DNA of 64,000 bases from Nitrosopumilus sp. K4. GTDB lineage: Archaea; Thermoproteota; Nitrososphaeria; Nitrososphaerales; Nitrosopumilaceae. The translations under genes were made by a program, and so were the position numbers. The DNA is taken from NCBI RefSeq assembly GCF_018128925.1, contig NZ_CP067007.1, positions 908,164 to 972,163 on the forward strand. The letters are read 5' to 3'. How positions within the stretch are numbered: position 1 is the first letter of the stretch; every line of letters starts with the position of its first letter. The notes below the pieces were generated by a model. That model saw nothing but the letters and a program-made list of their open reading frames with translations. It was not told the origin of the DNA and made no database searches. Of the stretch, positions 8,729 through 26,849 are shown in pieces.

Positions 8729-11197
8729 TTAGTTTTCTTTAATTTTTGAACCTTTAAGGATAACATCATCAGATCCCTCAAACTCCTTTCCATCCAAAGT
8801 TGAGCCTGTTAAAGTAATTGTTACAGTTGCTCTAGTTGGAGTACCATCTGGAAGGAACAGACAGATGTCTTGGGTATCAATGTGTAAAATTACATCTGTT
8901 AATCCATCTCGGTCAACATCTTCCAGATGGAGTTTATTATGAGATTCAGTGATTGGTGATGATTCTAGATGAAGAGATGGAGGGTCGATTTGAGTTGCAT
9001 CAAAATCAGGTAAAGAAAAGATTGTAGTAGGAATTACACCCTTTGATTTACACATTATAGAATCAGGAGAAAGGTCAACAGTGATTGGTGTTATCGGGTT
9101 TTCAGCAATAATTTCTACAGAGTCAGAACTTGTATCACCATCATAGTCTGTTACAGTGCATGTTGCAGTAAATGTTCCTCCGGTTTCATATGTGTGTGAG
9201 GGGTTTTTGGATTCAGAGATTCCTCCATCACCAAAGTCCCAAGAGTATGTAAATGGAGCATTGCCAGTTGTGCTATCACATGTAAAGGAAACATCTAGTG
9301 GAGTTAGGCCTCGTGTAACATCAGATGTTACATCTGCAACTGGAGTTTCGTCAGGAATTATAAAAACAAATGTACCTAAATTGTTTGTCTCATCAGACTC
9401 ATCAATTGGATTGACAGGCGTGTCTCCAGGAATTGTTGGTGGATCAAGCAAAATCTCCAAAGTGTGTTCTCCAGGAGGCAGTGATGGAAGAACAACAACA
9501 TCTACTGGACATTCATTGGTGCTGGGAGGAACAGGAGGAGGAATAGGAGGTACACATCCAGCAGGAACTACAGGAAAATGTCGGTCATCAGGGAATCCAT
9601 TTTCGTCATTATCAGGTCCTATACGTTCACCCAATCGGAAGATTCTTGCAAATACATCTACAGCATCCTCATCTCCTTCATTTGTTGGAGACCACGTGAA
9701 AATTACATTATTTCCAGATGGTTCAATTTCCACAGCACCGCCACCAAAGCCAAGGTCTGGTTGGAATAGTCTAAGATCAACAGAAGTAGTGCCTTCGTCA
9801 GTATCACCGTCTGCATCCGTTACAGTACATGTCGGATTAAAGATTCTAGGTTCAGCGTATGTGTGAACAGATATTGGTTCGTTGCTGGTAGTTCCATCAT
9901 CAAAATCCCAAAAATATGTGAAAGGCTCATTGCCAGTTGTGCTTTGACAGGAAAATGTTATGGCAGTACCAACTGTAGGTGGTTCTGTTTCAAAAGTCAA
10001 AGACAGTACAACGCTTGGTGATGAATCACATGCATCCCCAACTCCATCTGAATCAGCATCAGTTTGTGAAGGATTTGGGATTAGAATACAATTATCGACA
10101 TCATCAGGTATTCCATCTCCATCGGTATCAAGGATTACATTGACATCAAATGAAAATGTCGGACTTGTTGCAGGTATTACAATGTAAGGGTAAATTGGAG
10201 AGTATGTTAAGTCTAACCCAACAGATAATTCCCAGTTGTAATTTCCATTTTCTAAAACATCAAGTGGTTCTGAAGATACCAAATCTAGAGACACAAGCTC
10301 AATTGGGAATCCTGGATTAGACGAAGATTCCAGAGATGGTAAATATCTTACAGGTCGTAACTCTAAATCATTTTCCCACATCAAATCTGGTTTTGTGTCG
10401 GACACAGTTGCTCCATTTTCAGGGGAGATTAGATTTGGTATGCACAAAACTTCGTTTACAGGATTTCCTGAAATAGAGATGTATGGTTGTACACTGTCTA
10501 TTTTTCCGCCGCAGTGATTATTTATTTGACCATTATTTTCAAATCCCGTAACCCATACACCCAGTAAATTAAAGTTGTTTAATACAGCTCCTGAATCAAG
10601 TATGATTGCAGCATGATCTGTACGAATGTTACCGTGATTGTTGATAGTGCCTCCAAAAATTTCTACTCTAGTAGACGTAAGATCCATGGAATCAAAATTG
10701 TTCAATACCGCATCAGGGCCATTGATGTTTAATCGGGTAGAGAATTGTATAACATTTATCGCATCGAAATTATCTATCCTACTTCCAGAATTGATATTGA
10801 AATCACTAAAACTAGAAGGATAATAAGAATTAAGTTCCAGATAACCACCAGATTCATTTATTAAAACAGAGCCTGAATTATTTTCTACAACACCATAAGA
10901 GGTCAAACGTCCGCCGTGATGTAGAATGATTGTTCCTTCATTTATTATGGTACCTTCATTAAATACAACACCATAAACAGAAAGGGTGATGCCAGAATTA
11001 ACAATCAAGGTATCACCAGAGTTCACATCGAGTATACCATCAACTCTACAGGTATCAGGATTAACCCATGTTAATCCAAGGGCCTCACATGAAGCCTGAT
11101 CAGATATATCTCCACTGACTGCAAATACGTCTTGAGAAAATCCAATTAGCCCGAAAACCACAATACCAAATAACAATAGTAGAAATATACCTCTCAT
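8729..11197 (-). CDS. Large secreted protein with beta-helix-like, thrombospondin-3 and PKD domains
   Basis: Starting at the ATG at 11195-11197 gives 822 residues with a clear signal peptide ([11 protein letters not shown]...VFA); the longer frame to 11317 would put 40 basic residues before it. After the signal come short repetitive strands (NEGTI, NNSGSV, NHGNI) like a parallel beta-helix. Next are Ca-binding thrombospondin type 3 repeats ([25 protein letters not shown]), a PKD domain with WDFDDG, a CARDB-like segment ending in ESDETNNLG, and a second PKD domain with WDFGDG. A C-terminal beta domain completes it. No anchor is seen. Likely a cell-surface or extracellular adhesion protein. Ligand unknown. 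Confidence 0.78.
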
Positions 11198-23313: not shown

Positions 23314-24168
23314 ATGGCCAAGGCAGTAGCAGTAGTTCACGGGGCAATTTCAGTCGTAAATGCAATAGCAAATCAAAAAGGAGCTACGCTAGGAATCGAG
23401 TTACAAGTAGAAGCAATTGTAGAAACAAAGACAGGAAAAGGAATAAGCATTCAATCAAAAAACAAGAGTCTCAGTTCACGACTAGTCAATAAAACGGTAG
23501 AAAAAATTGTTCCAAAAAAAGATTTAGAAAAAAACAATATTGCCATTACTCTTAATTCAGAAATCCCATTAGGATATGGATTGAAAAGTTCCAGTGCAAT
23601 TTCATCAGCAGTTGCATTAGCATGTGCAAAAATTTTCAAACCAAAAGCATCTGATCAGCAGATACTACTAGCAGGAGTAGACGCATCAATCGAGACCAAA
23701 GTAAGCATGACAGGAGCATATGATGATGCATGTTCATGTTATTTTGGAGGATTCAATGTAACAAACAATGAAAAGAAACAAAGAACACATTATGAAAAAA
23801 TACCACCAAATCTAAGTGCAGTGATATTTCTTCCAAAAAGTAGAAAGCGCGGTAATTTGAAAAATTTGAAAGTATTGTCTTCAGTATTTGACAACGCGTG
23901 GGAACTTGCACGGAAATCAAAGTACTGGGATGCTATGACAATTAACGGATTGGCAACATCAGTTTTATTAAATTCAGATCCAACAATAATTACAAACCTA
24001 ATAGAAAAAGGAGCGCTTGCAGCTTCAGTATCTGGAAATGGTCCATCAATTGCTGCAATAACAAAGAAAGAAGATGAAGCTAATGTAAAAAAAGTATTTT
24101 CAGGATTAGAAGGAACAACAATTGTTTCCAAAGTAAACAACAAAAAGGCAGAAGTTCATGAAGTGTAA
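23314..24168 (+). CDS. aroK: Shikimate kinase, archaeal GHMP type
   Basis: Archaeal shikimate kinases belong to the GHMP family and are not related to bacterial AroK. This 284-residue protein has the family ATP loop PLGYGLKSSSAISSA (about residues 88-102), the N-terminal AVVHGAISVVNAIANQKGATL and the C-terminal SVSGNGPSIAAI glycine loop. It starts one base after the aroE stop and overlaps aroA by 11 bases. Confidence 0.94.
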   Translation: MAKAVAVVHGAISVVNAIANQKGATLGIELQVEAIVETKTGKGISIQSKNKSLSSRLVNKTVEKIVPKKDLEKNNIAITLNSEIPLGYGLKSSSAISSAVALACAKIFKPKASDQQILLAGVDASIETKVSMTGAYDDACSCYFGGFNVTNNEKKQRTHYEKIPPNLSAVIFLPKSRKRGNLKNLKVLSSVFDNAWELARKSKYWDAMTINGLATSVLLNSDPTIITNLIEKGALAASVSGNGPSIAAITKKEDEANVKKVFSGLEGTTIVSKVNNKKAEVHEV

Positions 24169-25426
24169 AATAGAAAAATCAAACGTATCAGGACAAATCA
24201 CATGTCCACCAAACAAGAGTTATACACATAGAGCAATATTTCTAGCATCACTTGCTGGAGGAAACAGCAAAGTAAACAACGTGTTATTTTCTGAAGACAC
24301 AAAGGCAACCATTGAAGCATGTAAGAAATTTGGTGCAGAAATAGAGCAAGAAAATACATCAATCAATGTCAAAAATCCCATCAAAACAGACACAGACGTG
24401 CCTGAAATAAATGCTGAAAACTCTGGAACAACAATAAGAATTGCATCAGGAATTGCAAGTCTATTTTCAAAAGAAATCACACTCACAGGAGACGAGAGTC
24501 TACAAAAAAGACCAATGCAACCATTACTAGATGCACTTGAAAGTATTGGTGCAAAATGTATCTCAACAGATGGAAAACCCCCAATCAAAATTACTGGAAA
24601 AGTATCAGGAGGAGACGTTACAATTCCAGGAAGTTTTTCTAGTCAATTCATATCAGCTTTGTTAATTTGTGCTCCACTAACTGAAAAAGGAATTAACTTG
24701 GCAATTGAAGGAAATCTTGTTTCAAAACCATATCTTGATGCAACAATTGCAACAATGAGAAAATTTGGTGTCTCAGTTCAAACATTAATTCCATACAAAA
24801 GATACAACGTATCACCACAAGTGTACAATCCATCATCATTTGATGTTCCAATAGATTTTTCAAGCCTTGCGATATTGCTTTCTGCAGCAGTTCTAAACGG
24901 AAATGATTTTTCAATTAAAGGAAACATAGGGAATCTACCACAAGGAGATGAAGTATTCATAGATATTTTAGAACAATTAGGAGTGAATGTAATAATTAAT
25001 GAAAAGGAAATCAAAATTAAAGCTCCAGAAAAACTAAACGGAGGTAGGTTTGATTTGAGCAACTCCCCAGATCTTCTTCCACCACTTGCAATCTTAGCAT
25101 TAAAAACAGAAAAGCCAATAGAAGTTGTCAATGTAAAACATGCCAGGTTAAAAGAGACAGATAGAATTGCAATTCTTTCCCGAGAACTTGTTAAGATAGG
25201 AATCAAAGTTCAAGAAAATGAAGATGGGTTGATTTTAGAATCATCAAATAATTTACAACCTGCAGAATTAGATTCAGAAAATGACCACAGATTGTTTATG
25301 GTGTTTTGCATAGCAGGAATGTATGTAGGAGATTGCACGGTAACAGATCCAGAATCAGTATCAGTATCATATCCAAATTTTATCGAAGAGATGAACAACT
25401 GTGGCGCAAAGATTCAAAGATTATAA
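24158..25426 (+). CDS. aroA: 5-enolpyruvylshikimate-3-phosphate synthase
   Basis: Transfers enolpyruvyl from PEP to shikimate 3-phosphate. The 422-residue protein has the two-domain inverse barrel order: PPNKSYTHRAIFLASLA, the ENSGTTIRI signature, SSQFISALLICAPL, and the C-terminal ARLKETDRI and DHRLFMVFCIAGM blocks. In many EPSPS proteins the glyphosate-contact segment is LGNAGT; here it is AENSGTT, a class difference. A 325-base spacer separates it from aroC. Confidence 0.95.
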   Translation: MKCKIEKSNVSGQITCPPNKSYTHRAIFLASLAGGNSKVNNVLFSEDTKATIEACKKFGAEIEQENTSINVKNPIKTDTDVPEINAENSGTTIRIASGIASLFSKEITLTGDESLQKRPMQPLLDALESIGAKCISTDGKPPIKITGKVSGGDVTIPGSFSSQFISALLICAPLTEKGINLAIEGNLVSKPYLDATIATMRKFGVSVQTLIPYKRYNVSPQVYNPSSFDVPIDFSSLAILLSAAVLNGNDFSIKGNIGNLPQGDEVFIDILEQLGVNVIINEKEIKIKAPEKLNGGRFDLSNSPDLLPPLAILALKTEKPIEVVNVKHARLKETDRIAILSRELVKIGIKVQENEDGLILESSNNLQPAELDSENDHRLFMVFCIAGMYVGDCTVTDPESVSVSYPNFIEEMNNCGAKIQRL

Positions 25427-25451
25427 AATTTAAAAAAAATCAACTAAAGAG

Positions 25452-25543
25452 GCAAGAGGCGCGACCCTGTATAGAGTGAAAAGCATTCTCTTCACCCGCA
25501 GCGCGTTAGCGCAGATAACATGTCTTTTTCGCAGGGCCGCGCA
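25452..25543. ncRNA. Candidate structured RNA element in the aroA-aroC spacer
   Basis: In a spacer otherwise very rich in A+T, this ~95-base stretch is about 55% G+C (my count) and can fold. Outer helix: 25459-25463 (gcgcg) and 25465-25469 (ccctg) pair with 25538-25542 and 25532-25536, with one A-C mismatch. Inside are a hairpin at 25473-25489 (agagtg/cattct, one G-U) and a hairpin at 25501-25512 (gcgc-gtta-gcgc). A TATA-like attataaaattt lies upstream (about 25420-25431). It has no open frame of interest. It could be an independent small RNA or an operon leader element; strand cannot be fixed. The rest of 25427-25751 holds nothing I recognise. Confidence 0.45.
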
Positions 25544-25720
25544 AATTATGCAGTATAATTTACACGTTTTTGCATATATCATATACGTTATTGTGATATT
25601 TAAGATTTATTTGAAATAATTACATAATATATCAAGAAATCATACATATATTTAGTATATCTACTCATTGATCTGAAAAAGTCCCAAAACAAATAGAAAT
25701 TTTTTCCAAAGACAGGATGA

Positions 25721-25751: not shown

Positions 25752-26849
25752 ATGTTGCCGGGAAGTTCTATTGGTCAGCGACTTGTTTTAACTAGTTTTG
25801 GTGAAAGTCATGGAAGATCAATAGGCGCAGTTCTAGAAGGTTGTCCTGCAGGATTAGAATTAGACGAGAAAGACATTCAAAAAATGTTAGACCAAAGAAG
25901 ACCAGGTCAATCACTAATTACAACTCAAAGAAAAGAAGGCGATAAGGTTGAAATTATTTCAGGAGTGTTTAGAGGGCATACAACAGGTGCACCAATTACA
26001 ATGGTCATTTGGAATAGTGATCAAAAATCAAAAGACTATGAGAACTTGAAAACAAAATTACGTCCAGGGCATTCAGACTATCCTGCAATGATAAAGTACA
26101 ATCACTTTAATGATTACAGAGGAGGAGGAAGATTTTCTGGAAGATTAACAGCTACTCATGTAATGGGAGGGGCAATAGCTAGAAAATTATTAAAAACAAC
26201 ATTAGGAATTGAAACAAACTCATACACATCACAAATTGGTAAAATAAAGATGGAAAGAGAATTTGATGAAAAAATGGTGAAATACATTTACAAAAATGAT
26301 GTCAGATGTCCAGAAGAAAAGACTGCAAAGAAAATGAAAGAATCCATAATGAATGCAAAAAGAAAAGGAGATTCACTTGGAGGAATTATCGAATCAGTGA
26401 CAACGAACGTTCCAGTGGGATTAGGAGAACCGATTTTTAATTCACTTGAATCAGATTTAAGCAGAGCAATGTTTTCTATTCCATCTGTAAAAGGAGTAGA
26501 ATTTGGTTCAGGTTTTGAAGGTTCAAAATTATTTGGTTCTGAAAATAATGATCTTTACACAATAAAAAAAGGCAAGATAGTTACTAGAACAAATAATTCA
26601 GGAGGGATATTAGGAGGAATTTCAAATGGCATGCCAATTACGATGAGGGTTGCATTCAAGCCAGCATCATCAATTGCTCAAAAACAAGATACAGTAGACA
26701 TCAAAACCAAAAAACCTGCAGTACTCCAAGTGAAAGGAAGACACGATCCATGTGTGGTTCCAAGAGCACCTCCAGTGGTGGATTCACTAGTTTCATTAAT
26801 TATTGCAGATCATGCCTTAATTTCAGGCACAATAAAGCCGGTTTTATAG
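25752..26849 (+). CDS. aroC: Chorismate synthase
   Basis: Makes chorismate from EPSP using reduced FMN. The 365-residue protein carries the family signatures TSFGESHG near the start, RPGHSDYPA, RGGGRFSGRLTA and, near the end, RHDPCVVPRAPPV. Starts at the ATG at 25752 with a promoter-like box just upstream. The next gene begins 4 bases after its stop. Confidence 0.96.
   Translation: MLPGSSIGQRLVLTSFGESHGRSIGAVLEGCPAGLELDEKDIQKMLDQRRPGQSLITTQRKEGDKVEIISGVFRGHTTGAPITMVIWNSDQKSKDYENLKTKLRPGHSDYPAMIKYNHFNDYRGGGRFSGRLTATHVMGGAIARKLLKTTLGIETNSYTSQIGKIKMEREFDEKMVKYIYKNDVRCPEEKTAKKMKESIMNAKRKGDSLGGIIESVTTNVPVGLGEPIFNSLESDLSRAMFSIPSVKGVEFGSGFEGSKLFGSENNDLYTIKKGKIVTRTNNSGGILGGISNGMPITMRVAFKPASSIAQKQDTVDIKTKKPAVLQVKGRHDPCVVPRAPPVVDSLVSLIIADHALISGTIKPVL

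Follow-up and report, generated by a model that had tools for sequence, protein, structure and literature searches.

Between the aroA-like and the aroC-like gene of Nitrosopumilus sp. K4, a small island of GC-rich DNA interrupts an otherwise AT-rich spacer, which raises the question of what it encodes, on which strand, and whether it serves the shikimate genes at its sides. The original prediction, derived from the letters of the window (the whole stretch of 64,000 nt that was analysed), had offered two readings, a regulatory RNA of the aro genes or an independent small RNA. The second has held, with an own promoter, an own T-run, strong covariation and several copies on its side. The GC-rich patch is well supported, as far as comparison of sequences can support it, as an autonomous minus-strand small RNA gene of ~140 nt which lies opposite in direction to aroA and aroC.

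A Minus-Strand RNA Gene in the aroA-aroC Spacer

The 92-nt island at positions 25452-25543 contains 55.4% G+C compared with 34.9% in the window and 24% in the rest of the spacer, and 0.08% of all 92-nt stretches in the window are equally GC-rich, which bears out the compositional contrast noticed at the outset. Folded as minus-strand RNA, the island reaches -42.5 kcal/mol (z -3.6), an energy attained by none of 200 shuffles, whereas the plus strand yields a weaker fold of -35 kcal/mol (z -2.0). The outer helix and the two inner hairpins foreseen from the letters are present; the mismatch assumed within the outer helix disappears on the minus strand, where the A-C mismatch of the plus strand becomes a G-U pair and 11 continuous pairs result. 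A plus-strand RNA was rejected on both grounds. Likewise, 136 G-U cells stand against 25 C-A cells in an alignment of 74 family members, which identifies the minus strand as the RNA strand.

The extent first proposed, 25452-25543, covers the folded domain, but the start of the RNA lies outside it, and the strand as well as a leaderless frame of nine codons had been missed. In the alignment with relatives, the conserved block runs past the island on the aroC side and includes a conserved TTAAATAT, the TATA box of the RNA gene (25596-25603, minus strand as for all parts of the gene), which is located ~25 nt before the RNA and keeps a fixed distance from the ATG in relatives. Transcription is predicted to begin at about the A of position 25575, which is at the same time the first letter of the leaderless micro-ORF ATGCAAAAACGTGTAAATTATACTGCATAA (25546-25575; MQKRVNYTA; stop codon TAA at 25546-25548). 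Three nucleotides past this stop codon begins the 5' strand of helix P1 (GCGCGGCCCUG, 25532-25542), which pairs with the 3' strand CAGGGUCGCGC (25459-25469), both strands featuring covariation. Hairpin P2 (GCGC-UAAC-GCGC, 25501-25512) has a stem of variable sequence with compensatory changes at most pairs. In hairpin P3 (25474-25497), the stem changes from GUGAA/UUCAC to GGCAA/UUGCC in Nitrosotalea with the tip GAGAAUGCUU unchanged, and this tip is invariant in the subtype. The last helix is followed by a run of eight Ts (25432-25439), an archaeal-type termination signal close to the 3' end of aroA, and T-runs after P1 occur in most relatives. The aroA-like ORF (24158-25426, plus strand) is convergent with the RNA gene and the aroC-like ORF (25752-26849, plus strand) divergent from it; both were taken from the ORF list under the names of the original prediction, with which their sequences agree. 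An anatomy consisting of an own TATA promoter, a covarying three-way junction, a T-run, a 5'-terminal start codon and a frame of near-fixed length can be predicted with high confidence.

Covariation in relatives, one of the checks suggested beforehand, proved to be strong. In the 74-member alignment, 91.7% of the pair cells are paired and at most 48% when the alignment is slid; as the structure guided the alignment of the rows, the percentage is inflated, and the slid and shuffled controls give a fairer measure. Double (compensatory) changes occur at 21 of 26 pairs, and the covariation score is 0.487 vs. 0.226 in shuffles. Among eight close relatives, 98.6% of the pair cells are paired (slid controls at most 58%), with six pairs doubly changed.

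Several known identities were considered and rejected. ARAGORN finds one tRNA only, elsewhere in the window, and no Rfam tRNA falls at this site, which speaks against a tRNA or tmRNA. A C/D or standard H/ACA guide RNA was dismissed, as inspection of the minus-strand core for the C (RUGAUGA) and D (CUGA) boxes showed no TGATGA or CTGA and no Rfam guide family was matched. The cmscan search recommended by the original prediction assigned the element to no Rfam 15 family at or above its gathering threshold, either for the window or, under relaxed settings, for the spacer, and returned just a distant tRNA and chance-level matches.

A Multicopy RNA Family in Nitrosopumilaceae

A BLAST comparison of the element with 60 relatives gave matches in nine other genomes, seven of them between aroA and aroC and two, from Nitrosotalea, elsewhere beside a Sir2-like ORF. 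The aroA-aroC position is conserved in Nitrosarchaeum, Nitrosopumilus and related genera. An unrelated repeat, against which the original prediction had cautioned, or a mobile element can be set aside, as BLAST gives a single match in the own genome and the locus is syntenic across genera. A covariance model built from eight aro-site sequences (R1) revealed weak second matches in some of the same genomes, and these constitute a second subtype, which shares the overall plan and carries an additional helix (GCAGAAC/GUUCUGC) within P1. The model of this second subtype alone (R2) recovers the window copy at 53.6 bits, and the two subtypes are thus related; a third model (R3) was made broad. With R2, a second copy was detected in the own genome at G000:C1:1505110-1505242 (80 bits). 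The resulting number of two own-genome copies rests on model and pattern searches; BLAST matches one of the two, and the diverged paralogue was found via the model alone. The site of this paralogue (L135, L209) is the most widely shared of the family and was matched in many genera; the conserved ORF convergent with the RNA there (21 copies) is mostly 130-200 aa long and ends in G-[PT]-V-S-V-x-[IL].

Of 400 genomes from the class, the R2 model matches 201 in 18 genera, all of them Nitrosopumilaceae among the matches listed, and in a chosen set of 29 genomes that represents 18 genera it matches every one. In a sample of 299 genomes from the whole phylum, R3 matches 56, every one of which belongs to the Nitrosopumilaceae, and no member of this family is among the non-matches listed, outside which there are 223 further non-matches. 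Relaxed filters uncovered nothing convincing in 23 genomes of other families in the order or in the genera g4, g7, g10, and g13. Among the genomes of g4 are two small ones of the same family (G007, G028; ~0.8 Mb) in which no convincing copy was found with relaxed filters, possibly a loss that accompanied genome reduction. Positive genomes, including those of Nitrosopumilus and Nitrosotalea, contain one to four copies and rarely five, with three each in G126 (C1:22398-22530, 488160-488280 and 690171-690300, all on the plus strand) and G032. The RNA genes apparently form an uncatalogued multicopy family found throughout the Nitrosopumilaceae; the literature searched, mostly open-access, does not mention such an RNA, and an earlier report may exist elsewhere.

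Further observations concern single copies. In L198, two tandem copies (G272:C184:10092-10211 and 10401-10519) with frames of nine and eight codons are ~190 nt apart and represent a recent local duplication. A contig assigned to a bacterial MAG, L101 (JAJDAE010000327.1, "candidate division KSB1 bacterium"), scores 141 bits for the RNA and is most likely a mis-binned Nitrosopumilus contig. A viral origin was rejected as well: a relaxed pattern matched nine viral contigs, and none of them contains the RNA according to the covariance model.

A Predicted Leaderless Frame of Near-Fixed Length

In the sequences examined, the start expected from the TATA box reads ATG or GTG; since the search for the start codon covered a few bases around the model start (consensus ATG), independent support comes from the TATA spacing and the stop only. 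The centre of the TATA box is 24.5 nt from the ATG in most clusters and 23.5-25.5 nt in the correctly scored ones. In 124 of 135 sequences, the frame is closed by a stop after nine codons, and in nine others after eight, ten or twelve. One decayed copy (L060, G202:C4) has its stop after five codons, and another copy (L065, G149:C189) has no in-frame stop within the 75 nt scanned. These two type-1 copies, which have lost the usual frame, also feature altered P1 ends and lower scores, and such a joint decay is what would be expected if frame and fold cooperate. After clustering by the first 33 nt with an identity cut-off of 75%, by which relatives are not counted separately, start and in-frame stop after eight to ten codons are found in 27 of 28 diverged clusters, the exception being a decayed copy, compared with a mean of 3.1 and a maximum of 10 of 28 in 2000 trials with the 45 nt past the start codon shuffled. 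The other two reading frames feature no such regularity of length. TAA, TGA, and TAG interchange among the copies, and so do ATG and GTG. Of 71 members scored, 67 have 3-5 nt between the stop codon and P1. In G008b and G266b, for which the model had misplaced the start, the start defined by the TATA box leads to nine codons (MLVQCRMMD), and in some Nitrosotalea copies with the usual stop lost, the new stop is the last codon ahead of P1. Even when the fold is ignored and 11 genomes are searched just for the TATA box, the spacing, the frame and a GCG, nearly all matches belong to this family. The nine-codon frame is quite probably translated, judging by these regularities.

The peptide itself appears to be disposable. 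Across 58 distinct type-1 frames, pN/pS amounts to 1.49, with most variation at the second codon position; depending on the copy, the products read MQKRVNYTA, MPMDIIPID, MRKDVNPID, MSLVIKSGD or VIVESLQMA, and the frames of the family feature no repeated or conserved codons and no shared peptide motif. A frame that is fixed in length and free in sequence suggests that the act of translation matters, rather than the peptide. The short frame is conserved, yet the peptides diverge freely, and a dual-function small RNA with a functional, conserved peptide is not supported; an amino-acid-sensing leader was rejected, as repeated or conserved codons are missing. A hairpin can form inside most frames (mean z of -1.8 relative to mononucleotide shuffles; 18 of 28 rank within the lowest tenth); its sequence and register differ from paralogue to paralogue, and it is weak in the subtype of the window. 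A type-1 pairing of the frame with the P1-P2 junction (ACGUGU/ACAUGU) was discarded on inspection, as it fails in several relatives.

Possible Function and Alternative Explanations

The RNA is tentatively interpreted as a structured RNA whose leaderless micro-ORF would dock a ribosome against the folded domain. When a stop codon occupies the A site, the ribosome extends over about ten nucleotides beyond it, and a helix that begins 3-5 nt after the stop would thus lie at or just inside the mRNA entry. From the leaderless start, the fixed frame and this placement of the helix, we infer a device which sets the ribosome against the fold. The ribosome would start on the leaderless AUG, melt the small hairpin into which most frames can fold, translate nine codons and terminate with its front edge against P1, by which the RNA would be held on, or timed by, the ribosome. 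Translation would expose or remodel the folded domain, which could act in trans in a translation-dependent manner, either by binding a factor or another RNA or by being remodelled when ribosomes stop arriving, and the conserved P3 tips (GAGAAUGCUU; AGAG-GNAAU-CUCU) are likely the contact to a partner. Docking or gating of the ribosome as the function is conceivable and is put forward with some doubt. The same reserve applies to the wider reading of a multicopy RNA whose nine-codon frame might be purely a ribosome ruler or dock, with an irrelevant peptide and an activity that reports or acts on ribosome availability.

Both the preservation of the folded core and the P3 tip across unrelated loci and the lack of conservation among the micro-ORF peptides would also suit a conventional trans-acting or protein-binding structured small RNA, in which the micro-ORF would have no part in switching and would just recruit a single ribosome and shield the 5' end. 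The tight length of the frame and the tight spacing between stop codon and P1 nevertheless exceed the needs of simple loading, and this explanation is rated as rather unlikely.

Alternatively, the nine-residue peptide might be the product, i.e., a signal or antimicrobial minigene with the structured part as a stabilising 3' region. Start, length and stop are conserved, and diversified peptides of paralogues would suit a signal or toxin; however, the pN/pS value, the variability of the second codon position and the lack of a common motif oppose a functional peptide, the RNA covariation is far stronger than a stabiliser needs, and no consistent modification or export gene was found near the copies, which makes a peptide product improbable. 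Similarly poor prospects are assigned to an untranslated frame, in which AUG and stop-like triplets would be a binding motif or a by-product of the 5' hairpin. The region does often fold, but the hairpin shifts in sequence and register, and the three stop codons as well as ATG and GTG interchange across 28 diverged clusters with no internal in-frame stop.

Regulation in cis is hardly credible in either form. A short frame, then a fold and then a T-run would resemble a leader-peptide attenuator of the downstream gene, but an attenuator needs a same-strand gene downstream, whereas 36 of 45 additional copies have a convergent one as their next gene (often at most 15 nt from the model end), the window RNA runs into antisense aroA, and regulatory codons are missing from the frames. 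The neighbours belong to many unrelated clusters, the Nitrosotalea copies adjoining the Sir2-like ORF and others TFB-like, SDR dehydrogenase, CorA-like or thermosome genes (names read from the sequences, not database results); a common neighbour gene was accordingly rejected, though the one locus with the convergent ORF family recurs. Such varied neighbours and mostly convergent genes argue against an aro leader or riboswitch and for action in trans. A cis-acting RNA of the aro operon, as first suspected, has the conserved aroA-aroC position in its favour but, like a riboswitch or leader of aroC, is contradicted by the opposite strand, the own TATA box and T-run, the location of the other copies by unrelated genes, and the fact that in several genomes this site holds just one of two to three copies.

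Significance and Comparison With Known Systems

Few archaea of sea and soil match the Nitrosopumilaceae, a major ammonia-oxidising group, in abundance, and little on their regulatory RNAs was found in the literature searched. The RNA family probably does something basic, since it is carried by all 56 positive genomes of the phylum sample, was kept through large sequence change and is spread over unrelated loci. A frame fixed in length and position and free in sequence is comparative evidence of selection on the act of translation. If the preferred reading of a docked ribosome is true, the family would represent a new kind of RNA device that uses a frame as ribosome ruler or dock.

Bacterial leader-peptide attenuators combine a very short frame with an RNA structure just downstream to which its translation is coupled, ahead of the controlled gene. 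The RNA described here shares the short frame and the adjacent structure, but it is a separate RNA gene, mostly facing a convergent gene. The tmRNA is a stable structured RNA containing a frame of about ten codons and is similar in this respect; in the present RNA, the frame is 5'-terminal with its own start codon, and no tRNA-like domain was detected. The closest published examples found are two archaeal ones, of which the dual-function sRNA154 of Methanosarcina mazei contains a leaderless small ORF with a highly conserved product of 20 aa (PMC11456600). Both are archaeal small RNAs with a leaderless small frame, while the lineage differs and about nine codons with an unconserved peptide are present here. 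Ribosome-associated small RNAs of Haloferax volcanii feature ribosome occupancy, most of them without evidence of coding potential (PMC12482152). The outcome proposed here, an RNA held on ribosomes, is similar, but the Haloferax RNAs were grouped through ribosome profiling, in contrast to a single family with this fold and a fixed frame. The RNA does not fully fit the definition of any of these systems, and its architecture is therefore regarded as new, the function proposed for it being less certain.
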